This document shows positions 13,825 through 47,476 of a stretch of 53,076 bases of DNA, one piece after another (the first letter of the stretch is position 1; each line of letters opens with the position of its first letter). Origin of the DNA: Candidatus Nitrosocosmicus agrestis (GTDB taxonomy: Archaea; Thermoproteota; Nitrososphaeria; Nitrososphaerales; Nitrososphaeraceae); the NCBI RefSeq assembly GCF_008389435.1, contig NZ_VUYS01000024.1, positions 1 to 53,076 of the forward strand, in the 5' to 3' direction. A program made the translations under genes and the position numbers. The notes under the pieces are model-generated. The model was not told the origin of the DNA. It was given only the letters and a program-made list of their open reading frames with translations, and did no database searches.

Positions 13825-15018
13825 ATGGTATTAAGGACAAATTCAAGTGACGTTAAACGACTAATGACAGTGACTACAGACAATAACTGCCATTTAAAAC
13901 CAATAAGTGGAGAACTTGATGAGGCCGATTCAAAGTATTGTATTAATAACCATTCGCAAATAATTAATCAGCACGAGAGCTCCGGTGGTGTAGAGGCTCT
14001 TTTTGCAAAAAAGAGTCACACAGTCCGGCTAAGCATTTCGCCCTCTCAAGGTTCTTTTTCGCTGGTAAATCATCAAAAAACGACGATCCCGGGTTCAAAT
14101 CCGTTTGAAATCAATCATTTTGATAGATTGGATCAAAAAGATTTAGAATATGATAAAAAGTCCATCGAGAATATTATCAAAAGTACTAACTTTTGGGACT
14201 CATTCAGAAGCTATTTACTGGAACTCAATACTGAAAAAACCATATATAGCCGGCTTTCGTACGCGAAACGATACTACGATTTACTAATTAGTAGAAACTT
14301 CCATGAGCTTCATACCATGTCTAAAGACAAGCGAATTCATATTATGAAAGCATTAACATCCTTGTCTAAATATTTGGGAATTTATGACAGATGGAAGGAT
14401 ATAGTAACCAAATTCAATCTAAAGTGGTCGTCTGGATTTAATGGGATTGAAGTATTTAAAAAGATAATTGAACCAGTAAATACTCTTGATTCAATGATTC
14501 CTTCTTTGCGGTCGACATTGAAGAACTGTGACATTCCTATTGGTCATAGAAATATTTTGCTGTATTGCACTATGACCGGTCTTCGGGCTTCTGAAGCGAT
14601 TGAAAGTATAAAGTTAATCAAGAATGAAAATTCTAGATTAAAATATATCTCAAATGACAAAGAAATGATTAAACATTATGAATTTCCAGAAATATTTATC
14701 AGAAGGACAAAGAAGGCATATTGTAGTGTTATAATCGCTGATTTGATCGAACTTGTCTTTTCTTGTTCTGTTATGAATGTTGCTGCATTCAGATCATATT
14801 TTACAAAAAGAAAAATTCCATTAAACATGAATTATGGTAGAAAGATATTTGCCACTTATCTACGCAACAAGGGAATTGAGCCAGAGATAATAGATTTGCT
14901 ACAAGGAAGGATTGGTAGTTCAGTATTTGTAAATCATTATTACCGTCCCGATATTAAAGAGATAATTACAAAGAAGATAAGACCTGTGTTGAATGAGTTG
15001 AGAAAAGAATTACTATAA
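13825..15018 (+). CDS. int: SSV-like tyrosine integrase, C-terminal part of element A joined to an older N-terminal remnant
   Basis: 397 codons. Residues 1-76 are a remnant of another copy's N part (HLKP...SKYCINN.SQIINQHES) running through the 5' half of tRNA-Glu. From 14052 onwards it is the element's own C part (321 aa) with the catalytic domain: TGLRASEAIE (first Arg), FIRRTKKAY (basic residue), YGRKIFATYL (second Arg) and VFVNHYYRPD (Tyr nucleophile). On excision the crossover at CCCTCTCAAGG would place this C part in frame behind the N part at 24238-24920, giving about 549 aa. Integrases split by their own att site are known from SSV-type elements. Whether the hybrid seen here is expressed is unknown. 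Confidence 0.85.
   Translation: MVLRTNSSDVKRLMTVTTDNNCHLKPISGELDEADSKYCINNHSQIINQHESSGGVEALFAKKSHTVRLSISPSQGSFSLVNHQKTTIPGSNPFEINHFDRLDQKDLEYDKKSIENIIKSTNFWDSFRSYLLELNTEKTIYSRLSYAKRYYDLLISRNFHELHTMSKDKRIHIMKALTSLSKYLGIYDRWKDIVTKFNLKWSSGFNGIEVFKKIIEPVNTLDSMIPSLRSTLKNCDIPIGHRNILLYCTMTGLRASEAIESIKLIKNENSRLKYISNDKEMIKHYEFPEIFIRRTKKAYCSVIIADLIELVFSCSVMNVAAFRSYFTKRKIPLNMNYGRKIFATYLRNKGIEPEIIDLLQGRIGSSVFVNHYYRPDIKEIITKKIRPVLNELRKELL
13929..14051 (+). repeat. attL of element A (tRNA-Glu 5' half)
   Basis: 123 bases matching 24798-24920 with one mismatch. It contains about 50 bases upstream of the tRNA, then tRNA-Glu from its first base (13979) through the 30-nt intron to the anticodon arm, ending at the core CCCTCTCAAGG (14041-14051). 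After the core come 29 element bases and then CGACGATCCCGGGTTCAAAT (14081-14100) plus CC, the matching T-arm side of the tRNA, after which similarity stops before the acceptor 3' strand. This copy cannot make a tRNA. Confidence 0.9.
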
Positions 15019-15403
15019 TCAAAGCTGCTTGTATGACATCTAAATATGATGGTATTAAAAAGAAATTGATTAGACTTCAAAGGTTGATTACCTGAATTTA
15101 GTTCTCAATTCATAATCATTTAAACAAATGATTCCTCTAAATTATGTAGTAAAAATCTTTATCTAAGAATACGATAAACTTGCTTTAACCAATTTGATCT
15201 TCGATTACGTTAACTGAAAGAAAAATTACCCCTTGGCATATGACATCAAACCTAAAGTTTGAATTCACGGCACCGCTTGGAACGAGTCATGAAGATTTCT
15301 TAATTTATTCCTATGATGTTTTAACCAAGCATAAATGCTTTTGAAAATTCTACTATAAGAATATACGATAATATTTTAAACATTAAATCTGTAGTATCAT
15401 ATA
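15019..15403. other. Intergenic region
   Basis: About 385 bases after integrase C. Nothing beyond the TATA-like box at 15371-15380 of the next gene. Confidence 0.5.
15371..15380 (+). promoter_or_regulatory. TATA-like box for a leaderless TTG-start gene
   Basis: ATATTTTAAA lies about 29 bases before the TTG at 15404, the spacing expected when the transcript starts at or next to the start codon. Confidence 0.5.
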
Positions 15404-16522
15404 TTGATAAAAAGAACTGATAGTTATCATTATATTAATTTCGATAGTATAATTGGAAAAAATATTAGATCTGTTGTCAGATTTCTTACAATTTTTATTC
15501 TAATATCTACACTTGTATTGGGGTCGGCCGCCTCAAGTTGGAATGTATATGGACAATCCAATGAGACAAATTCACAAAGGGAAGATTCAGCCAATATTAT
15601 TCCAAATACTGCAGAAGAACAAAACAATGAAGATACAGATAAACAATCATCTTTAGAAAACGGTTCTTCAGGAAATGATTCTGAGAATACAAGTAGTAGT
15701 CAAACCATTTTACAAAAGTCAAATAGCCAGATAGGGGCTGCTAAATCGCAGCCAGATAGGGACTGTTTGTTTGATCCATCATTGCCAAAATGTGCACCCG
15801 ATGAGAATGGCAAATGTCCTGACGGCTTTCACATGAATGGTTATGAACAATGTTTTCCTGCTCATGATAAATGTCCTTCTGGATACCACAGCCATGAGGA
15901 TGATGAGAGCGGAAGGTGTATTCCTGATAGTGTTCCATGTGATCCAGGCTATATTATGAGTCCTGACTTTCCTACTTGTGAATACAAAGACAGTGTCTGT
16001 AAGAAGCATCCTACATTGAATGAATGCAAAGTTGACGATAATACTGCAAACAATTTACCATATAAATCTGGATATAGTCATGGTTGTTCTGATGCAAAAA
16101 TATCTGATTCTTCAAAAAGGTACATAAATCAACCAGGAAAGGGACCTAGTTATCATACGCCAGATTTTATGAGTGGATACAACGATGGATTTGAAACTTG
16201 TTCTAATGGAAACAATCAACCAAATTCAAAAGGAACTTTCAAGGTCATTGTTCAAGTTACAAACCCACTGTCAGAGGACACATATGGGGGAATCACCTTA
16301 AATGTGAGTAGCTATCCTGAAAATGTTTTTAAGTCCGCATATGGTCTGTATTTCCCAGCCGGACAAACCACTTCACAGACATTTACATTCAAATCAAGCG
16401 ATGTACCCGTTGGGACTGAATTTGAAGTAAACCTTGACTATGGCGTTGACTACAATCAACACATTTTTGGGATGAATACACCAGCAAAGAAACCTGAGGT
16501 AGTGCAGTTTTTTATCTCATAA
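15404..16522 (+). CDS. Exported Cys-rich protein with C-terminal beta domain (paralogue of 7434)
   Basis: 372 residues, same architecture as 7434: MIKRT start from TTG, signal peptide ending AASSWNVYGQS, Ser/Asn/Gln-rich linker, cysteine-rich region (about 120-210) with DCLFDPSLPKCAPDENGKC and CIPDSVPCDPGYIMSP, GCSDAKI and YNDGFETC blocks, and a C-terminal beta domain from GTFKVIVQVT. The cysteine-rich and C-terminal regions are highly conserved between the copies while the linker diverges. Its position one gene after integrase C mirrors 7434 relative to the old att at 5.4 kb, suggesting that both are cargo of sister elements. Confidence 0.8.
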   Translation: MIKRTDSYHYINFDSIIGKNIRSVVRFLTIFILISTLVLGSAASSWNVYGQSNETNSQREDSANIIPNTAEEQNNEDTDKQSSLENGSSGNDSENTSSSQTILQKSNSQIGAAKSQPDRDCLFDPSLPKCAPDENGKCPDGFHMNGYEQCFPAHDKCPSGYHSHEDDESGRCIPDSVPCDPGYIMSPDFPTCEYKDSVCKKHPTLNECKVDDNTANNLPYKSGYSHGCSDAKISDSSKRYINQPGKGPSYHTPDFMSGYNDGFETCSNGNNQPNSKGTFKVIVQVTNPLSEDTYGGITLNVSSYPENVFKSAYGLYFPAGQTTSQTFTFKSSDVPVGTEFEVNLDYGVDYNQHIFGMNTPAKKPEVVQFFIS

Positions 16523-17225
16523 TGATGTGTACATCTTTCTTCTCTACTAAATCAGCTACATCCTAAGCTATGACTGTAACCCGTTTATATCTTAAATTTC
16601 GGATTTGGTCATGCCTGAGGTAAGTAGGTATTGATACATAAAACCGTCTTTACTTGAAGGAAAGTAATAGTTTGCGGAAGTTAAGCCACTCATATCCAGA
16701 TTCGTTTTAAGAGGTAGGAGAAAAGCCATATAGGCTAGGGGGTGTTTTTTCTTTCAGTTGTTTTATCGAAAACAGGATTATGTTGAAAGAACGTTTAACC
16801 TTTTTGCATTCGTCTCAATTTAACTAATCTCTGTTTAGTGGTAAAAATTCTTTTTTATGGCCTCAAACGATGAATTACTTTCAGTTCTATCTATGTTAGT
16901 ATTTCAATTTAGTTTGAGACTTGCTAATATTAATTGGATCTCATTTCCCTAAAACTTTTAATAGAATTTCATAAGGATTTTGCGCCATTTACAAAATTGG
17001 CGCCCAAAAACCAAAGAAGGGAACTATTTCGTTTTATGATAAATATTCGTCAATCCATAACTCCACAATATCTATTCCTTCTACACTTTTATCCTGCCAT
17101 TCATAAATGGTTTCTCTCTTTGGATTAAGATGTGATCTTTGATAGCACGAGCTTGGGGCCCGACTATCGTGGCTACTTTTGTGAACCGTTTCCTTGTTTT
17201 GTTTCTTCTAACCATTCTATAAAAA
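16523..17225. other. Intergenic region with a short repeat fragment
   Basis: About 700 bases. No gene supported; a 64-codon frame at 16934 has no domain. The sequence GGCGCCC then AGAAGGGAACTAT (about 17001-17030) recurs at 17829-17860, suggesting a small duplicated or decayed PsbP-like gene end. Confidence 0.45.
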
Positions 17226-17732
17226 TTAATTAAAAAACTTGATTGAATTTATCATTTTGATAAATTTATCTACGGTGTAGTCAGTAATTGAGTTAGATGT
17301 TTCAAACCTCATAATTATATCATTATGAAGTAAAATTATATCAGTCATTATGCTGTCATTCTTGTCATATGTTTTAAATCCATATCCAGTAAGGTTTGCG
17401 TATTTTACTGGTTTAATATCTTCAAAGACTGTCCAATTTATGGTAGTAGAATCAGTATCATTTGCAAGAGCGCTCTCTACAAAATGTTTGATATCTTTTA
17501 CTCCGTAAGAAGGATATATGTATAAACCAAAAGTAATGTCTGAATCCAACATGTCTGAAGATTTGTTATAATTGATGTAACCACTCAAACTATCAGTCTT
17601 AAATGGATATTCGATCGTAAATTTATATTCAGGATTAATATAGGTTTTCCATTCTTCTGATTGAGCAAAAACAGAGTGTTGGGCGCCCAACCCTATAACA
17701 GCAAGTAAAATTATGACAGAAGGTATTAGCAT
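17226..17732 (-). CDS. PsbP-like exported protein (duplicate of 18731)
   Basis: 168 residues. Signal peptide (SVIILLAVIGLGAQHSVFAQ) then EEWKTYINPEYKFTIEYP, the PsbP-like opening, and a C-terminal DKFIKMINSIKFFN. The first 40 codons and about 45 bases upstream of the start are nearly identical to those of 18731, while the bodies differ a lot. That pattern suggests duplication followed by fast divergence or recombination of the mature part, with conserved promoter and signal peptide. No Cys in the signal, so probably secreted rather than lipid-anchored. Confidence 0.7.
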   Translation of the reverse strand: MLIPSVIILLAVIGLGAQHSVFAQSEEWKTYINPEYKFTIEYPFKTDSLSGYINYNKSSDMLDSDITFGLYIYPSYGVKDIKHFVESALANDTDSTTINWTVFEDIKPVKYANLTGYGFKTYDKNDSIMTDIILLHNDIIMRFETSNSITDYTVDKFIKMINSIKFFN

Positions 17733-17808
17733 ACAAATCTTCTATTACTTTTGCTAATATTTAGATTTGATATTTTTTTAGAATCTTTAATTATAATTTC
17801 ATCTGGAG

Positions 17809-17842
17809 TTTCGGCCAATACAGAGTGGGGCGCCCGTCTTTA
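17809..17842 (-). pseudogene. Fragment of a third PsbP-like signal-peptide copy
   Basis: The plus strand reads GGCCAATACAGAGTGGGGCGCCC, close to the conserved signal-peptide DNA CAAAAACAGAGTGTTGGGCG of the two PsbP-like genes on either side. Only this short part remains and no open frame follows. It marks an additional lost copy. Confidence 0.4.
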
Positions 17843-18096
17843 AAAGAAGGGAACTATCTAATATGGTATGAATAGAAGGGGCCCACCCCAACATTCCTAT
17901 AATCTTTTTATATTATGATCACTATAATATAGGTAATGAGTAATTGATGATCTCGTCGTCAATGTTCATTAGTGGGGAACTGGAACTCGAATCTCTAGCA
18001 TTTCTAGTTGCGGGATAATACTCACGAAATGGGGTTACTCGGAGATGTAATAACTAGAGCTTATGTGGGGTCCTTATGCCTGCAAAACATATTGTG

Positions 18097-18678
18097 TTAT
18101 AGTTTTAAATCTTTAATGATTTGATCACGAAAAGATAGTCTAAAATCTTCTCCTTTTTCTATTATGTGATCACCTTTGAGCGGCCAACCTCTATGATTGG
18201 CATATGCAATACAATCAGCAATTTTATGAGCATATGATGATTCGACACATTTTAATCCACCCTGCATTAAAAACCCTCGGATATCTCCATTATCAACTTG
18301 AAATTGGACCTCATTTATCTTAATCCGGTGTTTATCTAAAAACCTACTACAAATAGAGTTCAAATGTTTTCGCATTCTATATGAAATTTTTGATCGAAAT
18401 TTAACTTGCGGCATTTTACCAAAATTGATTGAATTATCTATTTCTTTACGTAATGAAGATATTCCAAATTTTATACAGCAGATCAAAACTCCTTGACTAA
18501 AATCAAAACTATTTATAATTTGTTGTTGTCTGTCTGTGGAGTAAAATACACTTGTCAGATGAGTAAAATTCTTAGGAAGACATGGAATATTTTTAATCAA
18601 TGATTCATGATTACAAATCATAAAAGCAATATATTCACCATCCTCTGTTTCATCTACTGCTCCGACAAATTCTTTCAA
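18097..18678 (-). CDS. Uncharacterised 193-aa protein (possible RNase H-like fold)
   Basis: 193 residues with no signal peptide. The N-terminus (MKEFVGAVDETEDGEYIAFMI) alternates strand-like residues with acidic ones, and the C-terminal segment (AHKIADCIAYANHRGW) resembles the last conserved block of DUF3800-type proteins, thought to have an RNase H-like fold. That likeness is weak and I do not assign an activity. It lies between the two PsbP-like duplicates inside element A, all on the minus strand. Confidence 0.5.
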   Translation of the reverse strand: MKEFVGAVDETEDGEYIAFMICNHESLIKNIPCLPKNFTHLTSVFYSTDRQQQIINSFDFSQGVLICCIKFGISSLRKEIDNSINFGKMPQVKFRSKISYRMRKHLNSICSRFLDKHRIKINEVQFQVDNGDIRGFLMQGGLKCVESSYAHKIADCIAYANHRGWPLKGDHIIEKGEDFRLSFRDQIIKDLKL

Positions 18679-18730
18679 TTATCATAACATAAATATCTGT
18701 ATTGGTTTATATTCCATTTCAATTTGAAGA

Positions 18731-19255
18731 CTAATCAAAAAATTTGGTAGAGTTAACTGATCTATAAAACTTGTCCAGATTGAAATCTGTTGTTGGGTTG
18801 GACGTAGTAAAAAAGAAAATCTTATCATCATGATCTAGGAAGATATTGGTTCGTAATGAATCCTTTCCATTATAAGTAACATACTCATAACCTGAACTGT
18901 TTGCAAAAATTACTGGGTGTAGAGGATCAAATATAGTTACATTTCTTAATTCATTAGACAAATCCTTTTGTAACCAATATTCAACATATGGTTTAATATC
19001 ATTAGAATCGTTTTTCTGAGATATAAGTAATGAAAAATCTATTTCTGATTCAAGATTGTTTGATATTTTTGGTTTATCACCAATTATCAATATATTTGCA
19101 ACATTTGTTTCCATATGAGGGTAATCTATTGAGAATTTATATTCAGGATTAATATAGGTTTTCCATTCTTCTGATTGAGCAAAAACAGAGTGTTGGGCGC
19201 CCAAGCCTATAAATACACAAAAAATAGCAAAAACAATAGCAGAAGGTATTAGCAT
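18731..19255 (-). CDS. PsbP-like exported protein (duplicate of 17226)
   Basis: 174 residues. Signal peptide (FAIFCVFIGLGAQHSVFAQ), then EEWKTYINPEYKFSIDYP and a divergent body ending DKFYRSVNSTKFFD. Shares promoter-proximal DNA (from 19238 to about 19287 on the plus strand) and signal peptide with the gene at 17226. One of at least five PsbP-like domains in the window, concentrated in the integrated elements, which points to an exported cargo family of the elements rather than a household gene. Confidence 0.7.
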   Translation of the reverse strand: MLIPSAIVFAIFCVFIGLGAQHSVFAQSEEWKTYINPEYKFSIDYPHMETNVANILIIGDKPKISNNLESEIDFSLLISQKNDSNDIKPYVEYWLQKDLSNELRNVTIFDPLHPVIFANSSGYEYVTYNGKDSLRTNIFLDHDDKIFFFTTSNPTTDFNLDKFYRSVNSTKFFD

Positions 19256-19405
19256 ACAAATCTTCTATTACTTTTGCTAATATTTAGCTTTTTTATATTG
19301 TAAAGAAAATTTTCAGGTTTAAAGGTGGGTTAATCTATAATACTACATTTGTCAATGTTTTGGCGACGGCATAATTTTTCCAGTTACAAAATCATTAAAT
19401 CTTTC

Positions 19406-19728
19406 TTTTGACAGAGGATTATCACCTGTCAAACATGTGTCAAATTGATTTTTAACAATTTAGACCTCTTTCGTGCTAACATTGTTACCATAATGTTAGA
19501 CATTTGACGGCTTGACAGGTTTGGCGAGACTTTTTCAAATGAAAAGAGATATTACCATTTTCTCGAAAATACGTTTTCGTAAATCATTGGAAACTTTATG
19601 AAAAATACCTGTCAAACCCGTCCACCTGTCAAATGATATCATTTAAAGTATCAAATTAAGCACTAGTTTGATTGAAAATATTATAAAATGGTTTGACAGG
19701 ATCTTGACGGCAATTTCTTGCCCGTCAA
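19406..19728. repeat. Array of TTGACAGG/CCTGTCAA repeats
   Basis: About eight copies or near copies of TTTGACAG(G) in both orientations lie in roughly 320 bases: 19406, 19424, 19436, 19503, 19512, 19608, 19625, 19692, with TTGACGGC and CCCGTCAA variants at 19703 and 19721. The array sits just after the primase-helicase stop and before the PsbP-like gene. Such clusters act in other plasmids as initiator or partition-protein sites; that role here is inferred. Confidence 0.6.
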
Positions 19729-22242
19729 TTAAACACATATATGATTTCTCATATGATGGATATCATCAATTAATGGGCACTTGTCACATTCAAATCTATC
19801 AGTGTATCCAATCCTATGTATATGGGAATTAAAATCCCTTTTTTCTGATACGCTATATTCTGTTTTTTTCATCAGCTTGATAATTCGCCCGCCTTTGGTA
19901 TCTCTTTCTCCAGTAATAGCGTCAATGCCTTTCGCTTTTAAATTGGGTGTCACTTCATTAATCTTTTTGGAAAGTTCACTTGAAGTTTTTGGCCATAAAT
20001 TACTCCTTCTTAATTCGGGTTTTATTTGGTCTATTACATCACCAAGTTCTTTATGTAGTTGAGTTGGACTCCCATTCCACTCGCTATTTCTTTCATCCAT
20101 GAAAATCAATATTGCTTCAGCGACTGGGGAAGATTCAATGACTTCGTCATTTTGTTCCAATATATTTTCAGAATATAGTTTGGTAAATTTGTTTTCTGGA
20201 TATCCCAAACATCTTGAAATGATCTCCCCCCATTCAGCAAAATCAGCCATTCTTGGGAGCTTCTCCAATATTTTTTCATCCCGGTGTTCTTCTCTGTATC
20301 TAAGTACCGTTACCAAAACGTCAAATATGTGTCCCAAAACAAATGGCTTTAACCATTCAAATTCTCTTTCAATGTCTTGTTCCTTTCTTCTCGCATTCTC
20401 TTCAATTCTTTTAAACTTGATAATCAAAGATCTATCCAAAAAATCTGCCCGTGTTGTAACTAAATTGATACCATTAATACCAATACATCTTTTGAAATTG
20501 TAAACTATATCCCCATCATCAGTATAAAGCGCTCGTTTGCTAAAGCCCGCGCCCGTAACTGCTTTACACAACAAATCTGAATGATAATTTGAAATAGATG
20601 ATATGTTGTCAAAGAATACGACGTATTGATGCTCCAAAGTCTGTATGATGTCATTATACTGCTTGCTAAATGAAAAGTTATCAACGCTAGATGGGTCTAC
20701 TATTCTCTTTAGCATCTTAAATGCTGTTGTTTTGGCGCCCCCGCCATCGCCCTTTACCACCAATATTGCTTTAGAAATATTAGGTATAAACAAAGAGACA
20801 AGGTATACAGATAGTAATATCTTGTCGTCGTTAGATTGTAGATTAAACAATCTTAAGAAGTGAATAAACCCTTTTTCATTGTCTTGTTTTGATGAAGATG
20901 ATGGTATGACTTGTTGACTGCAATTGGTTTCATATCTTTTAAAAAGTGGAATTTTGTTGCTTTTGATGATCTCCCAGCCACCTGACGAGATCTTGACTAT
21001 ATCCCAATCTAGATTTGTAAGATCATAGTAGAAAACACTTGGTTCTGCTTTTCTAGATGCTACTCTTAGACTCAAGTCGAACTTTTCTACTTTTTCGTCA
21101 AATATCATTTGTGTTTCTAAAAGGGAAACTATTTCGCTTACCCTGTCTTTGTTTAGAGGCTTCTTTTCTTTCTCATAATACTCCTTTTGTACTATCTTTC
21201 TGAATCGATCACTATCTAGGGGTATACATTCAATATGATCATTTATGCAGATTGTAACATAGTATCTGTTAAATTGGTCTTTGAAAACCTGTAACCATCG
21301 TTTTTTGATTGACTCTAACAAATCTGGAATATTTGATTTGTCAGTTGTTTCAACATTTTCGGCATTCCTTGATATGAAGTTCTTTGCATCTTTCCACTGT
21401 CTCTCAAATTCTTTTTCATCTAGGGGTGGTTTGAAATGTTCTTGATTCATTCTTTTAGATATTTCCTTTATCTCTTCTTCAGACATTATAGCTTTGTTTC
21501 TTTGTATCAGAGATTCCATCATCCTCAATAGATCTAGGTGTCTGTTGTTACCTTCAAATTTGACATAATCATGTTTAAACAGATCTTGGATGGTGGGAGA
21601 TTTGTTACTATCCGATATTGTGGGACCAAATTCTTCATATATCTGATTAATCGAATATTCAAGACCTTCTGACTGTTCTTCGTTTAATACCGTTGGAGTT
21701 CGAGATCCAATGATTTGATAAGGGTGTCCATTCTTATGAACTGAAGGTGAGCAATACATTATACCGTGCTTTCCTTCCGACTTTACCTCAATCGCTGGAA
21801 TTTCTTGATCCAGTGAATTGGGCGGTCCATCGATCCCTGATTTCTTTGATAACGGTTTTTCAACTACGAAATAGACGTGCGCCTTTTTATCTTTAGCATC
21901 AAGATGTTGTTCAACAATCGTGTTTTCTGCAATCTTTTCTAATGTATTGGTTTTACCAAATTTGGAAAGAAATGCTTCAATTCCTTTAGCATTGTCAATA
22001 TCTATACAGGCTAGATATTTTCCTTTGAATTCGCCACGCCATATTAATCCCGTAATGATTGCACAACCAGCCTTGAAAGCACTAGATTTCTTCCAATCTT
22101 CATAGACTTCCTTGGGTATTGGTTTGTCTTGCCATTCTTTCCATTCAACTTTGGGTATTTTTATCATGGAAGTGGCCGGGATTGCGTTTACACCGATTGT
22201 ATAAAACCAAAAGTCAGGATCTATTGTTTTGGGAACTGTCAA
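19729..22242 (-). CDS. Plasmid-type primase-polymerase/helicase fusion
   Basis: 837 residues. The N-terminal 180 residues look like an archaeo-eukaryotic primase/prim-pol domain: DID at residues 81-83 (LACIDIDNAKG), then KHGIMYCSPSVHKNGHPY. A P-loop ATPase follows, with Walker A GDGGGAKTT (about 497-505) and Walker B VVFFDN, similar to D5/SF3-type helicases. The end has a Cys/His cluster (FECDKCP...HHMRNHIC), a possible zinc finger. TTG start; its stop-start overlap TTGA with the upstream 117-aa gene and an AGGAG eight bases before support it. This is the likely replication initiator of element A. Confidence 0.8.
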   Translation of the reverse strand: MTVPKTIDPDFWFYTIGVNAIPATSMIKIPKVEWKEWQDKPIPKEVYEDWKKSSAFKAGCAIITGLIWRGEFKGKYLACIDIDNAKGIEAFLSKFGKTNTLEKIAENTIVEQHLDAKDKKAHVYFVVEKPLSKKSGIDGPPNSLDQEIPAIEVKSEGKHGIMYCSPSVHKNGHPYQIIGSRTPTVLNEEQSEGLEYSINQIYEEFGPTISDSNKSPTIQDLFKHDYVKFEGNNRHLDLLRMMESLIQRNKAIMSEEEIKEISKRMNQEHFKPPLDEKEFERQWKDAKNFISRNAENVETTDKSNIPDLLESIKKRWLQVFKDQFNRYYVTICINDHIECIPLDSDRFRKIVQKEYYEKEKKPLNKDRVSEIVSLLETQMIFDEKVEKFDLSLRVASRKAEPSVFYYDLTNLDWDIVKISSGGWEIIKSNKIPLFKRYETNCSQQVIPSSSSKQDNEKGFIHFLRLFNLQSNDDKILLSVYLVSLFIPNISKAILVVKGDGGGAKTTAFKMLKRIVDPSSVDNFSFSKQYNDIIQTLEHQYVVFFDNISSISNYHSDLLCKAVTGAGFSKRALYTDDGDIVYNFKRCIGINGINLVTTRADFLDRSLIIKFKRIEENARRKEQDIEREFEWLKPFVLGHIFDVLVTVLRYREEHRDEKILEKLPRMADFAEWGEIISRCLGYPENKFTKLYSENILEQNDEVIESSPVAEAILIFMDERNSEWNGSPTQLHKELGDVIDQIKPELRRSNLWPKTSSELSKKINEVTPNLKAKGIDAITGERDTKGGRIIKLMKKTEYSVSEKRDFNSHIHRIGYTDRFECDKCPLIDDIHHMRNHICV

Positions 22243-22592
22243 TTAAAGTTCTCCTCATAAGAAATACCATTGTCAATTTTCTTTTGCACTTTCTCAAGAT
22301 CTACTCCATATTTACTACATAAATTCAAGATGATAAGTTTGAGAACCTTTTCTTCAAATTCAAAACGAGAATTGAATTCAAGGAATTTCAAATATTTTTT
22401 TAAAATATGAAACTTGTGTGTGTAATCATTAGTTCTTACAATATAGTCAAAATTGTGGGTGTAATATTCGACAACTGATTCCTCATTCAAAGGTATCTGT
22501 ATTTTCCTTTCAAAATGAAAATCAACAGTATCATTCTTCAAAATTCCATAGAAATATGTATAGTCTGGTTTTCTACATAATCGATTATACAT
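22239..22592 (-). CDS. 117-aa protein upstream of the primase-helicase
   Basis: 117 residues, ATG start, stop codon overlapping the TTG start of the primase-helicase, so translationally coupled with it. Sequence is rich in Tyr, Phe and charged residues (YYTHNFDYIVRTNDYTHKFH), without signal or membrane segment. I do not recognise the family. Its place between an AbrB-like gene and the replication gene suggests a replication accessory role. Confidence 0.6.
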   Translation of the reverse strand: MYNRLCRKPDYTYFYGILKNDTVDFHFERKIQIPLNEESVVEYYTHNFDYIVRTNDYTHKFHILKKYLKFLEFNSRFEFEEKVLKLIILNLCSKYGVDLEKVQKKIDNGISYEENFN

Positions 22593-22596
22593 TTGT

Positions 22597-22755
22597 TCAT
22601 TCTCCTTTTCTTTGTTTTTTTGTCATTATGATCTTTCCTTTTTTGAACTGAATTTCTAGGTGATCGCCTACTTTCAACCCTAGTGCTGCTATAATTGGTT
22701 GGGGATAGTTATCGTTGTTGAACCTGGTCCTTGTTTTATCAGAGTGTGATACCAT
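22597..22755 (-). CDS. Small AbrB/SpoVT-like protein
   Basis: 52 residues (MVSHSDKTRTRFNN..., ALGLKVGDHLEIQFKKGKII), matching the strand-and-loop pattern LGLKVGD.LE...k.g.I of swapped-hairpin AbrB-type DNA-binding proteins. Its stop lies four bases before the next gene's start, so the three genes form one operon: AbrB-like, 117-aa, primase-helicase. It may autoregulate this operon through the repeats upstream (inference). Confidence 0.65.
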   Translation of the reverse strand: MVSHSDKTRTRFNNDNYPQPIIAALGLKVGDHLEIQFKKGKIIMTKKQRKGE

Positions 22756-22837
22756 CTAAATGATGATAAATTTATCTCATTCATAGGAAAGAGCGGGCCG
22801 AAACCTGCTTAAAGGAACTGTTGTACTTAATATTCTT

Positions 22838-23100
22838 GAATATAGAAGATTGTTATAGTTGAATGCAATGTGTTTCGCAAAGAAATAGAGGAATGTTATA
22901 GTCGATTGCTGTAGTTACAGCAAATGAATAGAATTTTTTTATGGATTATAAAAATAGAAGAATATATTATACGATTGAGGACTTGTCGGCAAACGAATAG
23001 AAGATTGTTATAGTTGATTGTCCACTAATGGGCAAATGAATAGAATTTTTTTATCGTCTATAAAAATAGAAGAATATTCTATGGTTAGAAATCATTAATC
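22838..23100. repeat. Iteron-like direct repeats, candidate replication origin
   Basis: Five related units start near 22838, 22877, 22920, 22989 and 23032. Units share (G)CAAA-GAATAGAA; some continue GATTGTTATAGTTGA (22845 and 22999), others TTTTTTTAT (22933 and 23045) followed by TATAAAAATAGAAGAATAT (22948 and 23060). Directly repeated, AT-rich units placed just upstream of a replication operon are the classical look of iterons. No assay or GC-skew calculation was possible. Confidence 0.6.
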
Positions 23101-23717
23101 CATATTTCTACGATGTCTAAATTATCGCTAACATCTTAAGTAAATGAATATTTTTCATCATCTCCTTTTCTAACAAGATTTTCTAAAATGGCTTTTGCTT
23201 CAGGGCCAACGATCGTGACTATTTTTGTTTCTCCCACGATGTCTTCTTAAAAAAGGACCAGAGCTTTATAGTTTTCTATTTATAGAAAGGGATGTACTTT
23301 CTAACATAGTAATCAAAAGCATTTCTGAAAAGTTTATAGCCTATGGGAATGAAAAGCATTAAAAATTTTTGTCAAGTATGTTTTGAAAGTTTTGGCGACG
23401 GCATATCATGCCCACTCATTATAAATTTGAACATGATAAGAAATCTTGCAACTTTGGTTTGAAATTGGATTTTCAGTGTTTTATAATGTGTAACTTATAG
23501 AACTATCACATCTTAAAAAATCTGTCAACTTACATTCTGTTTTTTCGTTTTCCGAGATAGAATTTATAATTCTGTCTATCAATCTTTGATTCTGCAAAAT
23601 GAGATATAAGAAGAAATAGATTGTTACTATGGCTTATCTCTCTCAATTATGGTCTTCGCCGACCCCTCATCCAAACCATTACCGCCATTAACAAACATAA
23701 TTGGCAAAACCTTTCTG
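23101..23717. other. Non-coding region of element A
   Basis: About 600 bases without a gene. It contains one copy of the recurring motif AGTTTTGGCGACGGCAT (23388-23404). Confidence 0.45.
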
Positions 23718-24071
23718 TCATCCTGATGAAGCGCGCCATTTGTCGCATGTTTTATCAACCAACTCTTTGTTGTAGGGTTCGTAGATTTCAGATGTAACAA
23801 TTTCTGTACCTATTACAGCCCCCTCATTTGTATTGCTTTTCGTTATACTTGCAAAGGTTTTGTAGTGATGAAATATCATTCCCACTATGATGGGTTCAAT
23901 GGGTATGAATCTGCTCGCAAAAGACTGGTGAGATGTATAAAGTTTGGTGTTGTCAAATAGAGAATCAAAAGTCTTTTTGACATCCTTGGTCTTTAATTCC
24001 TTCTTAAATTCTGACCAAACCAACTTTTCTATTTCAATGAGTTGTCGGAATGATAGTATACTGCGGCCCAC
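23718..24071 (-). CDS. 117-aa hypothetical protein next to integrase N
   Basis: 117 residues with an ATG start, no signal peptide; helical N-terminus (SFRQLIEIEKLVWSEFKKEL) followed by a mixed segment. No family recognised. Divergent from the integrase N gene at 24238; the 166 bases between probably hold both promoters. Confidence 0.5.
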   Translation of the reverse strand: MGRSILSFRQLIEIEKLVWSEFKKELKTKDVKKTFDSLFDNTKLYTSHQSFASRFIPIEPIIVGMIFHHYKTFASITKSNTNEGAVIGTEIVTSEIYEPYNKELVDKTCDKWRASSG

Positions 24072-24237
24072 ATAGACATTATAAAGTCAATGGATTTAAC
24101 TATTATACATGTATACACAGCGTATTATAACTATGACTCAAATCAAAACTGTCTAAGATCAAACTTTTTTAAAGTATACAAATCGGCATTTAATAGAAAA
24201 AGCTTAATTCTTCATTGGACCTAGAGTTCATATCACT

Positions 24238-24996
24238 ATGTTATCAAAAGCAGAAGTTCAGTATCTTCAGGGTCAAAAACAAGTTTCCAAATCCTATGAA
24301 AGGAAGTTAAAGTGCTTAATTATGAAAAAGATAAGGTCATTGCAAAAAGAACTTCCGCTTCTGTCTACGCTATTTGGTGAAAATATTAGTTCAATTTTAT
24401 CTGGATTCGTAGATGAGAATTGCACCTCGATCCAAATTCCAAAACAAGAAGATGTCAAACATACACTCATTGTTCAAAATTTCAACAATGTAAAGGGTGC
24501 TACTGAATTAAGTAATGGACAATTTACTACTCTTGCCCCAGGCTACAAGGGATTTGAGATTTATGGGGGTGTTAACCGCTTAAAAGCCTGTGATCAATAT
24601 CAAAAAATACAAGGAGCTACGGAATTTAGTAATATCCATTCTAATACTCTCATTGCTACTGAATTTAGTAGCAAGAAGCGATACAAGAAGCATAATGGGG
24701 GAAAGAAACTTCCCGCAGGAACGAAATGCTTCAATATGTCTTTAAATGGTAGTGATGGCCATTTAAAACCAAGTGTTGGTGTTTTAGAGGGGCCAGCTTC
24801 AAAGTATTGTATTAATAACCCTTCGCAAATAATTAATCAGCACGAGAGCTCCGGTGGTGTAGAGGCTCTTTTTGCAAAAAAGAGTCACACAGTCCGGCTA
24901 AGCATTTCGCCCTCTCAAGGCGACGATCCCGGGTTCAAATCCCGGCCGGAGCATCCTTGTGTTATCTATTTGAACCCGGGACAGGGTTATTTCTGA
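24238..24996 (+). CDS. int: Element A integrase, N-terminal part
   Basis: 252 codons, of which residues 1-228 are the true N part. It opens LSKAEVQYLQG...SKSYERKL with a helical segment common at the start of archaeal tRNA-targeting integrases, then continues into coding sequence that is also the tRNA-Glu promoter region and 5' half (SQIINQHESSGGVEALFAKK). Past the core the frame runs into the rest of the tRNA and ends 44 bases beyond it. Joined at the core to 14052 it restores a full integrase in frame. The 30-nt tRNA intron is ten codons long and so keeps the reading frame. Confidence 0.85.
   Translation: MLSKAEVQYLQGQKQVSKSYERKLKCLIMKKIRSLQKELPLLSTLFGENISSILSGFVDENCTSIQIPKQEDVKHTLIVQNFNNVKGATELSNGQFTTLAPGYKGFEIYGGVNRLKACDQYQKIQGATEFSNIHSNTLIATEFSSKKRYKKHNGGKKLPAGTKCFNMSLNGSDGHLKPSVGVLEGPASKYCINNPSQIINQHESSGGVEALFAKKSHTVRLSISPSQGDDPGFKSRPEHPCVIYLNPGQGYF
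24798..24920 (+). repeat. attR of element A
   Basis: 123 bases matching attL (13929-14051) with one mismatch (ACCCTTCG here, ACCATTCG there). It spans about 50 bases upstream of the tRNA, the 5' half with intron and the core CCCTCTCAAGG at 24910-24920. Confidence 0.9.
24848..24953 (+). tRNA. tRNA-Glu(CTC) with a 30-nt intron in the D-arm
   Basis: Acceptor GCTCCGG pairs with CCGGAGC, discriminator A at 24953. D-stem GTGT/GCAT, anticodon stem TCGCC/GGCGA with loop CTCTCAA (anticodon CTC), T-stem CCGGG/CCCGG with loop TTCAAAT. Between GTGT and AGTCC lie 30 extra bases containing a hairpin CTCTTTTT-gca-AAAAAGAG, which I read as an intron near position 13-16, needing the splicing endonuclease. 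The exact splice sites can slide by two bases (AG repeats). The mature tRNA would be 76 nt. Its upstream 50 bases come from element A, so promoter and 5' half are element-supplied. This is the only complete tRNA in the window. Confidence 0.92.
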
Positions 24997-25167
24997 ATTA
25001 TCTATAGTATACTGTTTTTGTATTACAGTATACTGTTTTTGAAAGTCCGGCGAGTAGTACATATCGCAACTGATACAGTATAGGCCAATTTTCTTGAATG
25101 ATTCTTTAGCGCCAACTCTAATATAGCTAGAATTTAGACCTTTGTGACAAATTCGACACTTTGTCAA
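24898..25167 (-). CDS. int: Element B integrase, N-terminal zinc-ribbon part
   Basis: 89 codons. MTKCRIC...CISC carries two CxxC pairs (zinc ribbon) and ends RMLRPGFEPGIVALRG, which is the antisense reading of the tRNA-Glu 3' half, followed by a stop three codons later. The matching C part is at 46588-47438; joining them at the core gives a continuous frame of about 365 aa. This is a second type of att-split integrase, on the opposite strand and using the opposite tRNA half from element A. Confidence 0.8.
   Translation of the reverse strand: MTKCRICHKGLNSSYIRVGAKESFKKIGLYCISCDMYYSPDFQKQYTVIQKQYTIDNSEITLSRVQIDNTRMLRPGFEPGIVALRGRNA
24910..24958 (+). repeat. attL of element B (tRNA-Glu 3' half)
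   Basis: 49 bases identical to 47428-47476, from the core CCCTCTCAAGG through T-arm, acceptor 3' strand and the five bases TCCTT beyond the discriminator. Confidence 0.9.
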
Positions 25168-29386: not shown

Positions 29387-31627
29387 CTACTCAATTTGTA
29401 AGGTAAGTGGGTTTTTCTTTATAATCCTCACAAATTGATTATTAATTAGCAGGTCTCTGACTTGTCGAGCTTTACGATTCCTATCTAGTTTCAGATTATT
29501 TCTATCGATTATTTCCGAACGCGAATCTAAAATATATGCCTTCACTACCCCGTCAGTTTCACAGGCCTCATATAGAATGTCTTCAAATCGCACTTGAGTA
29601 TCATCTACATATCGTCTTTTTAGGATGTTAAAGCATTTTTCATAAGCATATTTATCGGGCTCTATCGGAACTCTTGTTGAAGATTCTATATACCTCGATA
29701 TTATTTTACTATAGAATTCTATTGCCTCATTAGCATCCAATTCATCAACTGTTTGTTTTAGTTTTAGTTTTGACACGTTTTTGCATAGTCTAATAATTGT
29801 TTCTAACACTCGGTTCGAACCAAAATCAGGATTAGATTTTCTAAGGGCGGTATAAAAGTATTTTATACGTTCCTTACACTCTGAGCTCAGTTTTGGATCT
29901 AATTTCCTTGCATACTCAATATGTTTCTGTAGATATAAATCATACTTGGGAATACGTTTGTCAGATAACTCCATCTTCTTTTCAGTGTAATAAAGTATAG
30001 CACTATCGCTGGTATTTTCAGTTACCACGTTTATCAGGTCAAATCTATCCAAAACAGGAGCTGTTAAAGGTATTTGACTAAGACTAATATTACCATCAGT
30101 TATGTCTGCGTGGTAGGTGGGTTTTAAAAGATTGGTTGACCCAACTATTGTTGTAGGGGATTCAATGTCAGAATGTATCCCATGTTTATTGATGCTAAAC
30201 TCGCCTTCCTCCATCGCATCTAACAAGTATTTTTGTTCTTCAAATGGTATGGTTCCAATCTCATTTAAAGCACAGACACTATACTTTGCTAATGGGATTG
30301 AGCCCAATCTAAGTAAATGATGTTCATTTTCTTTCTCAATAATTGCAGTCAGGCTTTTCCCAGATGAATGCTGACTACTTTCAAAACGACCATTAGGAAG
30401 GAGTTTTGCCGCCTTCTTTAGTAATGAGCTTTTTGCGTTACCGGGTTTACCCACTAACAATGTATGAGTTCTATTTCTCCCAGACTGATTGGATTTGGTT
30501 TTGTTCAAATCATCACCTGAACTAACTAGACTTAACAGAAGACATTCCTTTGCGAGATCTTGTCCTATTACGGATTTATCAAACATATCAACTAGTTTTG
30601 GTATTGTAGATTCACCGAATATCCTTGCAAACCTTCTTATGGCTTCCTCATCCAAACTACTCGTTACTACTTCGATTCTATTTTCATAGTCTAGCTTATT
30701 TCGGCTGTATAAAATTGGAAGAAGATTTCCTTTCTGATTCTTTTGAGTGATATGAATAGAGCCACCTATTGTTACCTTTTCTCCTACCTTAATGTTATGT
30801 GTATCTGTATCAAGTAGCAAACAATTCAACCTTTCAATTTCACTAAACCTTTCATCATCTTGGAGTTCTATCATTATTGCATTAACATATTCGTAATGTA
30901 CATTCAGACTACTTTGACATTTCTTACAGGAGGATGAATTCAATCGAGGTTCCTTATAAATGGGAACTTTAAACTGTTCAGTAGTAGAATACCAGCCACA
31001 GATACATTCAGCTTGATATGCTTGAATTAATTTGTAAGGCTCAGATACACTAATAATGACTCCCTTAACTTTGTGATATCCCTCACTTTGTTTGATTGCA
31101 TTGGATACGCTGATCGTTTCTGATTTTGTTACATCATTTATGTCAGATATGTCAGATTCATCAGGATTTACAATATACTCTCTAATAGCGTCCAAAGGAC
31201 CATTGGTCGGTATTCCGTTGATGTAGTATTCGATATTGTCTCTTTGTATGTCTAAACTTGACAGTATAGATTTGATTATAGAGTTTACTTCCTTAGTTCT
31301 TATTTCTTCTTTCAAATCATTGGTTATTTCATCATTAGTTTCTTCCCAGTTGATTCGGAATCTACCATCCACTTTTTCATACTTGATATTAGTTTTGAAA
31401 TTACCATGATTTCTAATATTAGTTACAATCTGGTATTGAGGATTAATTTTGATCCATTTAATATTGTTATTTCTATGTTCATCAGATATAGGCAATCTAA
31501 ATAATACTTCCAATTTAGGGATTTCATTTCGAAATGCAGATTTTGAATTATCTTGAAGAGTTTCAGCACGACTATCCTTAGTAAAGGTACCAAAGATTTC
31601 ATCCAACTGAGATGATTCAGTTGTCAT
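29387..31627 (-). CDS. mcm: Divergent MCM-type replicative helicase
   Basis: 746 residues. N-terminal domain with an MCM-like cysteine zinc site (ECICGW...CKKCQ, about 205-245), then the AAA+ core: VIGQDLAKECLLLSL, Walker A GKPGNAKSS (about 391-399), Walker B region VCALNEIGTIP (about 450-460), sensor/Arg-finger stretch with VLDRFDL, and a C-terminal helical domain. The Walker B Asp of chromosomal MCM (IDE) is replaced by Asn (LNEI), while Glu stays. Length and divergence point to a mobile-element MCM rather than the host copy. Probably initiates or unwinds element B DNA. Confidence 0.85.
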   Translation of the reverse strand: MTTESSQLDEIFGTFTKDSRAETLQDNSKSAFRNEIPKLEVLFRLPISDEHRNNNIKWIKINPQYQIVTNIRNHGNFKTNIKYEKVDGRFRINWEETNDEITNDLKEEIRTKEVNSIIKSILSSLDIQRDNIEYYINGIPTNGPLDAIREYIVNPDESDISDINDVTKSETISVSNAIKQSEGYHKVKGVIISVSEPYKLIQAYQAECICGWYSTTEQFKVPIYKEPRLNSSSCKKCQSSLNVHYEYVNAIMIELQDDERFSEIERLNCLLLDTDTHNIKVGEKVTIGGSIHITQKNQKGNLLPILYSRNKLDYENRIEVVTSSLDEEAIRRFARIFGESTIPKLVDMFDKSVIGQDLAKECLLLSLVSSGDDLNKTKSNQSGRNRTHTLLVGKPGNAKSSLLKKAAKLLPNGRFESSQHSSGKSLTAIIEKENEHHLLRLGSIPLAKYSVCALNEIGTIPFEEQKYLLDAMEEGEFSINKHGIHSDIESPTTIVGSTNLLKPTYHADITDGNISLSQIPLTAPVLDRFDLINVVTENTSDSAILYYTEKKMELSDKRIPKYDLYLQKHIEYARKLDPKLSSECKERIKYFYTALRKSNPDFGSNRVLETIIRLCKNVSKLKLKQTVDELDANEAIEFYSKIISRYIESSTRVPIEPDKYAYEKCFNILKRRYVDDTQVRFEDILYEACETDGVVKAYILDSRSEIIDRNNLKLDRNRKARQVRDLLINNQFVRIIKKNPLTLQIE

Positions 31628-39528: not shown

Positions 39529-40125
39529 ATGAATAATCCGATTGTGTTATCGACAATGACAATAGCAATATTTTCTATGATGTTATTTACACCTATTGAT
39601 CATAATGTTTGGTCGCTAGACTTGAATTTTGGAGGCCAAAATGGATTAAGCTTTAAAATGGATGAAATACCTTCAATCGGTTCGCAAGGTCCGCAGGGAG
39701 CAAGGGGTCCCCCTGGTCCACAGGGTCCACCCGGTGCTACTGGTGAACCCGGTCCTGTGGGTCCTCAAGGAGAGAAAGGTGAAACTGGCCCAGCAGGTCC
39801 TATGGGACCCGCAGGTCCGCAAGGCCCTCCAGGACCTGCAGGAGGAGGAATCCAAACCGGCACACTGATTGTCAAGGTAGATGTTCATTATCCAGCTGCC
39901 AATGAAATTAATGCATCTGATGTTCGTATTGTTGTTAATGGAAATAATCCGTTACCCTCAGAATTTCAGGGTTCTGAAACAGGAACAAATGTGACCATAG
40001 AAGAAGGTGATTATTCAGTTACACCCATTCCACCTCAAGGAACGGGCGAACAAACATCAGAGTTTCAATGTCAGGGCACAATGTTTAGCGGTCAAACTAA
40101 GCAGTGTACTGTGTTGATCTTCTAA
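39529..40125 (+). CDS. Collagen-like exported protein
   Basis: 198 residues. Signal/anchor region ([18 protein letters not shown]), then 17 to 18 Gly-X-Y triplets (about residues 52-106; [20 protein letters not shown] is the start), rich in Pro, followed by a beta-rich C-terminal domain of about 90 residues with two cysteines (FQCQG, KQCTV). Collagen-type repeats form triple helices and the C domain probably trimerises or binds partners. Likely a surface filament or adhesin. A decayed relative lies at 6957-7324. Confidence 0.8.
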
Positions 40126-44077: not shown

Positions 44078-44167
44078 CCTTCATCAACTCCTCCAACACC
44101 GGCCTTATCCCTTTTTTGTAATAATTTCATTTATGTCCGGCTTGTAGTAATGGTTGACATATTCTAT
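44078..44167 (-). pseudogene. Relic of type-A integrase C-terminus
   Basis: The minus strand reads VNHYYKPDINEIITKKG, then after a frame change IRPVLEELMK, the same ending as the integrases at 13825 (VNHYYRPDIKEIITKKIRPV) and 46302. Only the last 30 residues, including the Tyr nucleophile context, remain. It marks a further lost element-A-type integrase in inverted orientation. Confidence 0.65.
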
Positions 44168-44308
44168 ATTAATTGGCCTTATTGTATCTTTAAATCTTCT
44201 TGTCACCATGTTTTAATGTGATACTCTCACAGAGATAGCATCTAACAGCATTTAGCCGCCTTTTTCAATATTAGAATATATTCAAGCATGTTATTTAAGT
44301 TACAGAAT

Positions 44309-45564: not shown

Positions 45565-46301
45565 TTACAATCGATAGAGTCTATTTACCAATTATACTTT
45601 AAGTTTAGTTTAATAACGCCTGATTGTTAATTCTCTGAATTTCTTTCCTTTTGGCACCCACTAAAGCGCCTTGTTCTTCGACCATAGATGTAGGTCTCCA
45701 CATAGGTCAAACATTTTATTGGTATAAGACTGTATTGACTTCTAATTAAATTACCCATGAGAAGAGATGTGTGGTACTACTTCTCACAGGTAAGAGAGGT
45801 TACACGAAATACCTTAAATAGAAAGCATTGGCCGAGAATTTAAGCTTTAATGGAATTAAGTTACACGTTTTATAATGTAAATAACTATAGAAAAGGGAAG
45901 TTATGATACACCGACATGTGTGTGGATTTTAATTGACCGAGAATCTGGTGCCCAGAAGTGTTTGCTCCTACACATTTTAATCTAGAGAAACATTGAAAAG
46001 AAACTAATCCGGGTAGTATGCCATATTAGTAAAGCATATCAGAGTCTAAGAGTTATCTGGTGTCGTGTGACTGTTAGTTTTCGCCTCTGTTGCAGCGCCT
46101 GACGATTGTATTATTATTAATCAGATATACTATTTGAGTCAATCCTATTCTTTTTATAGGAATTAGAATAAAGGTTTGCATTTAGGCGGTAACTTTAGAA
46201 CTTGCTAGTAGCCGTATAGGAAATAATTGAACCTTGCAGAAAACGATGTTCGTTATTCATACTTATTAACAAAATTTGATAATAGTTGCTAGTCAAATCA
46301 G
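45565..46301. other. Intergenic region in the integrase graveyard
   Basis: About 740 bases between the methyltransferase and the integrase relic at 46302. No gene supported; only a short TGAGAAG/CTTCTCA inverted pair near 45759 was seen. Confidence 0.45.
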
Positions 46302-46500
46302 TTACTGCATTAACTCACCCAATACCGGTCGTATCCTTTTTGTTATTATTTGATTGATATCGGGTCTGTAATAGTGATTCACAAATACTGAACTACTAAT
46401 CCTTCCCTGAAGTAAATCGATTATTTCGGGCTCAATTCCTTTGTTGCAGAAGAAGGTAATAAAGACCTTGTGACAATAATACATGTTCGGTTTACATGAC
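46302..46500 (-). pseudogene. Relic of type-A integrase C-terminus
   Basis: The 60-codon frame reads YYCHKVFITFFCNKGIEPEI, then IDLLQGRISSSVFVNHYYRP and IITKRIRPVLGELM. It is very close to the C-terminal 60 residues of the integrase at 13825, but the catalytic Arg in YGRKIF is His (YCHKVF), and the upstream catalytic region is missing. Dead fragment in inverted orientation, downstream on its own strand of the inverted tRNA 5' half at 47742-47806. Confidence 0.75.
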
Positions 46501-46587
46501 TATTTTATAATCCTCAATTTATCTGTAAATTTCTATTAATTTGATAATCTCTTTGAAAGGATTAAGTTATATTATTTATCCTTATAA

Positions 46588-47452
46588 TTAAGTTCTTGTT
46601 AACAGGTCATTTAGTTTATCCAACTTGTCCGCAACTCGATTATAAATTGTTTCGAGTTGCGGGCGATAGTAGTGCCTGACAAAGATGGAATTAGGTATTC
46701 GTCCTTGTAAAAGATCTATTAATTCTGGTTCAACCCCCTCATTCCTCAAGAAAGTAGCAAATATCTTGCGGCAATAAGACATATTGCATTTCTTATTATT
46801 CCTCTGAAATGCAAGTCTGATTTTAGAGTAGTTTAAATCTTCATATTTAGATTCCTTTACCAAATTCATTATGTGCTTATTCATTATTGAGATGAATGCC
46901 TTCTTAGTTCTTCTGATAAAGATTGACGGAAATCTAAAGTGTTCCAGTCTTCTGCCGTCTTTAGAGAGGTAATCCCTAGAAGAGGAGGATAATAAATTAA
47001 AGGACTCGACAGCTTCTGTTGGTCTTAGGCCTGTCAAAGTATTGAATATTAAGACATTGGCAAATCTAGGGAACTGTTTAACTGATTGTCTTACCCAGTC
47101 TATCATACTATTAATATCGTTATTTTCATCGTTTATTTTACGAAAACTATTCAGCGAATCGGTATTTGACCATTTTAATTGATAATTATTTCTCACTTGT
47201 TGCCATTTCTCATATTGACCTTGATACTTTGATAATAACGATAGTGCTCTCATAACATGACCCCGTTTTTGAATAGACATCTTTGCTAATTCAGAGAAGT
47301 TCCATGTTTGTAATAAGCTATGATACTTCTTAGCATATACCATACGATTTCTAACAGTGGCTTTTTCAAGCTTTAGGCTTGATTCCAAATATTCTTGAAA
47401 ACCCTCCAAGGACGGGATTTGAACGTTCCCTCTCAAGGCGACGATCCCGGGT
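46588..47452 (-). CDS. int: Element B integrase, C-terminal catalytic part
   Basis: From the core the protein runs NVQIPSLEGFQEYLESSLKL and on to the catalytic blocks TGLRPTEAVE, FIRRTKKAF, YCRKIFATFL and SIFVRHYYRPQ, i.e. an intact tyrosine recombinase. About 279 residues follow the core; joined in frame to the zinc-ribbon part at 24898-25167 they give about 365 aa. In the present chromosome the upstream 69 codons of this open frame (47428-47634) are att and neighbouring sequence in the wrong frame for the zinc ribbon next to it. Confidence 0.8.
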
Positions 47453-47476
47453 TCAAATCCCGGCCGGAGCATCCTT
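47428..47476 (+). repeat. attR of element B (tRNA-Glu 3' half)
   Basis: Identical over 49 bases to 24910-24958. It carries anticodon-loop end, T-arm and acceptor 3' strand without a 5' half, so it cannot make a tRNA. Confidence 0.9.

Follow-up and report, generated by a model that had tools for sequence, protein, structure and literature searches.

The window analysed here, 53,076 nt in length, represents the whole contig C27 (NZ_VUYS01000024.1) of the draft genome of Candidatus Nitrosocosmicus agrestis (3.22 Mb, 43 contigs), an ammonia-oxidising soil archaeon of the Nitrososphaeraceae. It carries a tRNA-Glu(CTC) gene that is bordered by two integrated elements: A meets its 5' half and B its 3' half, and both share one junction, the core CCCTCTCAAGG (24910..24920, +). 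The intact tRNA gene (24848..24953, +) can be folded into a cloverleaf with a 7-bp acceptor stem. Its 5' half is borne by an element, and its 3' half also lies under the attachment (att) repeat of B. Homologues are present in 15 of 15 genomes of the genus. The D-loop is interrupted by 30 nt (24863..24892, +), a predicted archaeal intron of the bulge-helix-bulge type. Its fold, GUGU-AGA-GGCUC / GAGUC-ACAC, displays 3-nt bulges and a 4-bp helix at the joints, with the 5' side given by the fold and the 3' bulge AGU read from the sequence. This intron shares its frame with the N-terminal integrase part, int(N), of element A. Owing to the D-loop intron, ARAGORN did not report any tRNA for the window.

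The core is the overlap of the A and B repeats and contains the anticodon loop CTCTCAA (24912-24918), which is flanked by the inverted arms GCC/GGC. Both repeats terminate at or beside CTCTCAA. The left att copy of A (13929..14051, +) comprises the tRNA promoter region and the 5' half with its intron and has the core at its end. Over 123 bp it differs from 24798-24920 by a single mismatch (13952 A/C), and its limits are sharp at both ends: The 40 bp immediately to its left show only 26/40 identities. The tRNA 3' half is contained in both att copies of B, 24910..24958 and 47428..47476 (both +), which form a perfect 49-bp repeat. GCTCCGGTGGTGTAG and CGATCCCGGGTTCAAATC are each found in three exact copies, compared to 0.04 and 0.01 expected by chance, respectively. 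An earlier note on this DNA had proposed, on the basis of these two repeats, that the anticodon loop was attacked from either side, and all its coordinates were reproduced.

Element A (14052-24920, 10.9 kb) has its catalytic integrase part, int(C), at the left end and int(N) at the right end, both on the + strand. Element B (24921-47427, 22.5 kb) has int(N) at the left and int(C) at the right end, both on the - strand, so that the opposite reading strands described before were found again. The int(C) of A (14052..15018, +) encodes the catalytic half of a tyrosine recombinase. Its int(N) (24238..24920, +) has a helical N-part, and this open reading frame extends without a frame change across tRNA promoter, 5' exon, intron and core. 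The element-borne promoter region AAAGTATTGTATTAATAACCC (24798..24847, +), which codes for KYCINNP in int(N), is conserved upstream of tRNA-Glu(CTC) throughout the genus and is a predicted tRNA promoter due to the position of its AT-rich box. In B, int(N) (24910..25167, -) encodes a zinc ribbon and runs antisense into the tRNA 3' half with the open frame LTKCRICHKGLN...RMLRPGFEPGIVALRG, and int(C) comprises 46588..47427 (-). When N- and C-parts were joined in silico across the core, one open frame was obtained in each case, with 549 aa in A and about 360 aa in B. Such frames would hardly be expected with misplaced att sites. Both integrases are therefore split by their own attP, the att site of the element, and the halves lie where the earlier note had put them.

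Both catalytic halves match the SSV-type family PF16795 (Phage_integr_3; curated cut-off 27 bits) with 33.3 bits (E=5.5e-8) for A and 35 bits (E=1.6e-8) for B, and both match the integrase family phrog_5127. A profile of the catalytic half hits the SSV1 integrase structures 3uxu/4dks/3vcf (E=0.007). The motifs YCRK and HYY, conserved in A1, contain the catalytic residues (arginine of the RK box and nucleophilic tyrosine, respectively) and align with YFRK and HYV of 3uxu. The first arginine (TGLR) is invariant in A1 and lies beyond the region aligned to 3uxu. The catalytic halves of A and B are 43% identical and thus belong to one family, so that the previous claim of two integrase types did not hold. 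The same is true for the assignment of helical N-parts to the 5' side and zinc ribbons to the 3' side. Among the relatives found in the integrase search, which belong to Candidatus Nitrosocosmicus or the Nitrososphaeraceae (genomes numbered G, loci L; G003 and G004 are one-contig genomes), both N-types occur on either side. Zinc ribbons are present in 5'-half elements at tRNA-Arg (left junction of G003, G005). Helical N-parts are found in 3'-half elements in sense orientation (contig C8 of the window's own genome at tRNA-Glu(TTC), G004, G009, G010) as well as in an antisense 3'-half element (L099). Consequently, the two N-modules are exchangeable between the sides. Around one shared core, the elements are arranged in three ways: The N-side arm carries either the 5' half or the 3' half in antisense, or else the 3' half is located on the C-side arm. 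The use of the 5' or the 3' half is a matter of which attP arm bears the tRNA complement and not of the integrase type. In the simplest reading, the integrase would recognise the core, and the arm would merely rebuild the tRNA.

The chromosomal state before insertion can be deduced from relatives. In G014, the site is empty on both sides: The cyclophilin gene ends at 4533, followed by 522 bp, tRNA-Glu (5055-5157), 29 bp and a gene for a 155-aa protein. In G003, the 5' side is empty, with the cyclophilin end 494 bp from tRNA-Glu, and 3'-side elements separate the tRNA from the 155-aa gene, which is found about 24.7 kb downstream. In G004, the same gene has been displaced by element DNA to about 43.7 kb downstream. 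The cyclophilin gene of the window (3671..5041, +; PF00160), whose counterparts in G003 and G014 are located about 0.5 kb upstream of tRNA-Glu, constitutes the left chromosomal flank. Its end is separated by 394 bp from the outermost copy of promoter and tRNA (5435) and by 19.8 kb from the intact gene for the tRNA. Comparison with relatives that lack the elements was the check suggested earlier. The relatives that are empty on the 5' side (G003, G014) or both sides (G014) fit the inferred flanks. A pile-up by successive insertions is supported.

Older insertions are visible on both sides. The outermost copy (5385..5449, +; direct repeat D4) consists of the promoter and the first 15 nt of the tRNA; promoter and exon match, and the rest is decayed. 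It forms the left end of A' (5450..13928, +), the remnant of an older 5'-side element that has genes in common with A (repeats D1/D2). Its protein encoded by 7434-8564 is 63% identical to that encoded by 15404-16522 in A, and a decayed N-part is located within it at 13825-13928. A' probably inserted before A. On the 3' side, a second, older zinc-ribbon int(N) (47480..47690, -) that is out of frame with the att site belongs to the remnant of an outer element spanning from 47480 to the contig end. Behind the left att copy of A, 14052..14102 (+) comprises a 29-nt insert and, after it, 22 nt that are an exact relic of the 3' half of the tRNA (14081-14102, tRNA positions 74-95, detected by blastn). 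Both lie on the C-side arm of A's attP. Due to this relic kept behind the core, the attP of A seems to be a transition form. The same insert and relic are contained in an element of CRAIB_MAG96 (L096) that is 84-86% identical. An interpretation of the 29-nt insert as a second tRNA intron found no support, as the following exon is truncated and that tRNA copy is not functional. The D-loop intron, the copy at 5385-5449, the 29-nt insert with its relic, the N-part at 47480-47690 and an inverted copy at 47742-47806 (see below) had not been part of the earlier note.

The arrangement is not confined to the window. Left ends with promoter, 5' half and CTCTCAAGG or ATCTCAAGG followed by int(C) were found in G013, G006, G010 and CRAIB_MAG96, and all diverge directly after these letters; the int(C) of the CRAIB_MAG96 element is 84-86% identical to that of A. 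The signature of the right end, int(N) immediately upstream of tRNA-Glu, is present in G001, G004, G006 and G013. In G004 and G013, int(N), tRNA and int(C) lie in a row. That an intact integrase reads across the tRNA was considered there and rejected, since stops interrupt every frame between the two integrase parts. At tRNA-Arg(TCG), 5'-half copies followed by int(C) occur in G003, G005 and G013, and int(N) runs into the tRNA; in G003, this 5'-half element measures 22.4 kb. At the same gene, G005 also has 3'-half copies, whose int(C) is on the opposite strand. By this layout of 5'- and 3'-half elements, tRNA-Arg(TCG) is a second tRNA attacked from both sides. The 5'-half integrases at tRNA-Glu read through the upstream box AAAGTATTATATTAATAACCC (KYYINNP), the 5' exon (SSGGVE) and the intron, and those at tRNA-Arg through the box GATAAATTATATAACTG (DKLYNC) and the 5' exon RRVRSVVRISRR.

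Two other contigs of the window's own genome carry related remnants. On contig C8 (L009 4965-8882), the 3' half of tRNA-Glu(TTC) harbours a decayed 3.8-kb element with a helical int(N), and a zinc-ribbon remnant behind it reveals a pile-up at the second tRNA-Glu of this genome. On contig C12 (L185 9208-9620), a decayed helical int(N) is located immediately upstream of tRNA-Arg(TCG), so that two tRNAs of this genome have been hit from the 5' side.

Architecture, empty sites, recurrence and reading frames can be read directly from the DNA. Together, they make it very probable that tRNA-Glu(CTC) is an insertion hot spot for SSV-type self-splitting tyrosine integrases, which enter from both sides and whose attP arm rebuilds the tRNA. 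In all elements, strand exchange would take place at the anticodon loop CTCTCAA, which is enclosed by the GCC/GGC arms, and the core alone would be needed for recombination. One attP arm would bear the tRNA half that is cut off by the insertion, so that the tRNA survives. In B-type elements, this would be the 3' half in antisense on the N-side arm, in the other 3'-side elements the 3' half in sense on the C-side arm, and in A-type elements the 5' half with the promoter on the N-side arm in the integrase frame. Upon insertion of a 5'-half circle, the chromosomal promoter, 5' exon and intron would be displaced to the distal end of the element. The resulting tRNA would combine promoter, 5' exon and intron of the element with the chromosomal 3' exon. 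A 3'-half element would act as the mirror image, and repeated insertion would generate an array. With its integrase gene split, an element would only be excised once a related integrase has arrived, a mechanism that has been put forward for SSV2 and pTN3 (PMC8371274). Because the integrase frame reads through promoter and intron, each 5'-side insertion would replace both in the working tRNA. In the window, it can be seen from the sequence that the promoter region, 5' exon and intron of the working tRNA are those of the copy bordering A; its 3' exon may originate from the chromosome or from B.

The intron within the integrase frame deserves separate consideration. Among 14 genomes (the genus and the bin G059), tRNA-Glu(CTC) introns have lengths of 21, 26, 27, 30, 36, 42, 45 and 55 nt. 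The length is a multiple of three in 12/14 genomes, the exceptions being 26 nt (G005) and 55 nt (G008), and the integrase frame is open in 11 of these 12 introns. Stops are mostly located in the third frame and rarely in the integrase frame. In a pattern search covering 70 genomes of the family, the CTC intron was confined to the genus and G059, and it is absent from all ten tRNA-Glu(CTC) genes read in other genera. G059 probably mixes strains or is a contaminated bin, as it contains several different tRNA-Glu(CTC) loci, both intron-bearing and intronless. These data can be explained if the tRNA-Glu(CTC) promoter and intron in Nitrosocosmicus are cargo of mobile elements. Then, about 120 bp would serve at once as promoter, exon, intron, att site and integrase code, and selection on the integrase frame would keep intron length and openness. 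The intron would have entered the CTC gene via such an element, perhaps from tRNA-Glu(TTC), which has the same first exon. We regard the prospects of this proposal as evenly balanced. Alternatively, the in-frame length might be due to chance or shared ancestry, and the intron might be an ordinary host tRNA intron. There are only eight distinct lengths, two of which do not fit, and throughout the family, tRNA-Glu(TTC) commonly has a D-loop intron in the same position. However, these TTC introns, at whose gene neither a 5'-half element nor a 5'-half integrase was found, lack such a bias: Only two of their 14 distinct lengths are multiples of three compared to 6/8 for CTC (Fisher p=0.008). Along with the distribution of the stops and the restriction of the CTC intron to the genus where 5'-half elements read it plus one mixed bin, this renders an ordinary host intron rather unlikely.

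A second alternative concerns the 5'-half copies themselves. Instead of att sites, they could be pieces of the tRNA that were copied among ordinary 3'-half elements, either by homologous recombination or by tandem duplication. The 22 nt of the tRNA 3' half retained in A's C-side arm and the existence of tRNA fragments in other orientations (47742-47806) would be in accordance with this assumption. Yet, in every clear case int(C) follows right after the 5'-half copy and int(N) lies right before the intact tRNA, and the same layout recurs at two different tRNAs with diverged integrases and an open joined frame, so that we consider such duplications very improbable. That elements of different strains were joined at short repeats during assembly or binning is hardly credible even for a 43-contig assembly with repeats of 49 and 123 bp, as the one-contig genome G004 carries both a 5'-side int(N) remnant and 3'-side elements at tRNA-Glu, and the one-contig genome G003 a 5'-half element at tRNA-Arg.

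Several points weigh against the proposed two-sided insertion with its intron-bearing integrase frame. Shared ancestry weakens the frame statistics: The test on distinct lengths alone yields p=0.02, and openness compared to shuffled interiors p=0.048. A search for decayed left 5'-half copies belonging to the 5'-side remnants of G004, G001, G006 and G002 yielded scores no better than those of shuffled sequences, so that for G004 and G001, the left-end copies are not recognisable. In IMG/VR, searches for the tRNA 5' end with the beginning of the intron and for sequences related to the catalytic half revealed no circle and no virus or plasmid contig with a joined integrase. The window belongs to a draft assembly, although the same arrangements are present in one-contig genomes, and the contig stops before the right chromosomal flank is reached.

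Apart from the integrases, A encodes a Prim-Pol primase/polymerase (19729..22242, -; PF09250, E=3.6e-7) and B an MCM helicase (29387..31627, -; PF00493, E=4e-32). Both look like plasmid-like cryptic integrated elements. A collagen-like protein with Gly-X-Y repeats is encoded in B (39529-40125, +). Its PHROG matches are collagen-like tail fibres; they rest on the Gly-X-Y repeats and were set aside as evidence for a virus. B also contains decayed int(C) fragments resembling that of A (46296-46487 and 44111-44161, both -), signs of earlier insertions. A gene for a 117-aa protein (23718-24071, -) without family match lies divergently beside the int(N) of A. Its homologues adjoin zinc-ribbon int(N) in G004 and G005. 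It is a possible candidate for an integrase accessory protein or regulator.

The inverted copy of the tRNA 5' half with intron (47742..47806, -; repeats I2/I3) is 65/65 identical and stops where the anticodon loop ends. At six loci, a zinc-ribbon int(N) is preceded by such a 5'-half copy of the cognate tRNA (CTC or TTC), which points in the direction opposite to the tRNA: here, L043 17823-17883 (-), L050 13758-13825, L137 1387-1452 (-), L078 3193-3251 and L065 10022-10074. All end at, or at most 2 bases from, the end of the anticodon loop. In 4/6 loci, the intron of the copy is identical to that of a tRNA in the respective genome, suggesting local capture or gene conversion. If the two cores recombined, the N segment would be inverted. 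Furthermore, upstream of a zinc-ribbon int(N) in G003 (L040 15169-15600, -) and, in decayed form, in G006 (L051 6800-7190), an apparent sense 3' half of a different tRNA ending with GGTTCAAATCCCGCACTTCGCA was observed, perhaps the trace of an earlier target.

SSV-type integrases and arrays of elements at one tRNA are known, as is the use of a tRNA 5' half by pTN3-like integrases and in one thaumarchaeal case (PMC8371274, PMC5495485, PMC6563490). The type I 'suicidal' integrases of SSV1 and SSV2 share the PF16795 half, attP within the split gene, a tRNA target and an overlap in the anticodon loop with the elements described here (PMC8371274). In contrast to the SSV elements, which use the tRNA 3' half, the same family uses here the 5' or the 3' half on either strand with exchangeable N-modules. 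The pTN3-like integrases of Thermococcales (tRNA-Leu 5' half) likewise have a 5'-half att site in the integrase gene, and the tRNA is rebuilt beside int(N) (PMC8371274, PMC5495485). Element A and its relatives appear to work like them, the likeness drawn here being one of mode. Whereas the tRNA rebuilt by pTN3 no longer adjoins its original promoter, about 50 bp of promoter region are duplicated with the att site in the present case and lie next to the intact tRNA. The att homology and the integrase frame include both this region and the intron, and the same tRNA is also used by 3'-side elements. In the literature searched, with most subscription papers outside reach, neither the use of one tRNA from both sides nor an integrase frame that retains the promoter and intron of a tRNA has been reported.

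The earlier note had regarded the 5' half as the unusual side. This agrees with a thaumarchaeal survey from 2019, in which CalSub-E1 at tRNA-Ser of Candidatus Caldiarchaeum subterraneum was the only 5'-side case among 39 tRNA insertions (PMC6563490). CalSub-E1 is a single element on one side, whereas in one genus and at two tRNAs many 5'-side elements were found, so that a mode held to be rare in archaea is common here. The closest parallel for the intron is the tRNA-Thr(GGU) of Caldiarchaeum, which is proposed to have gained a 5' tRNA fragment and an intron via attP/attB recombination of a mobile element (Sugahara et al., 2012, PMC3293823). There, the element is of the pNOB8 type and its recombinase gene does not overlap the tRNA. 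Here, the intron codes for part of an SSV-type integrase, and its frame is kept in most of the genus. As every 5'-side insertion would swap the working promoter and intron, such insertions provide a direct and testable route by which mobile elements could spread and maintain archaeal tRNA introns, in line with the idea of Sugahara et al. (2012). The side of attack can switch within one integrase family, which bears on how integrases change their target orientation, and the working tRNA of the cell appears to be partly mobile-element DNA.

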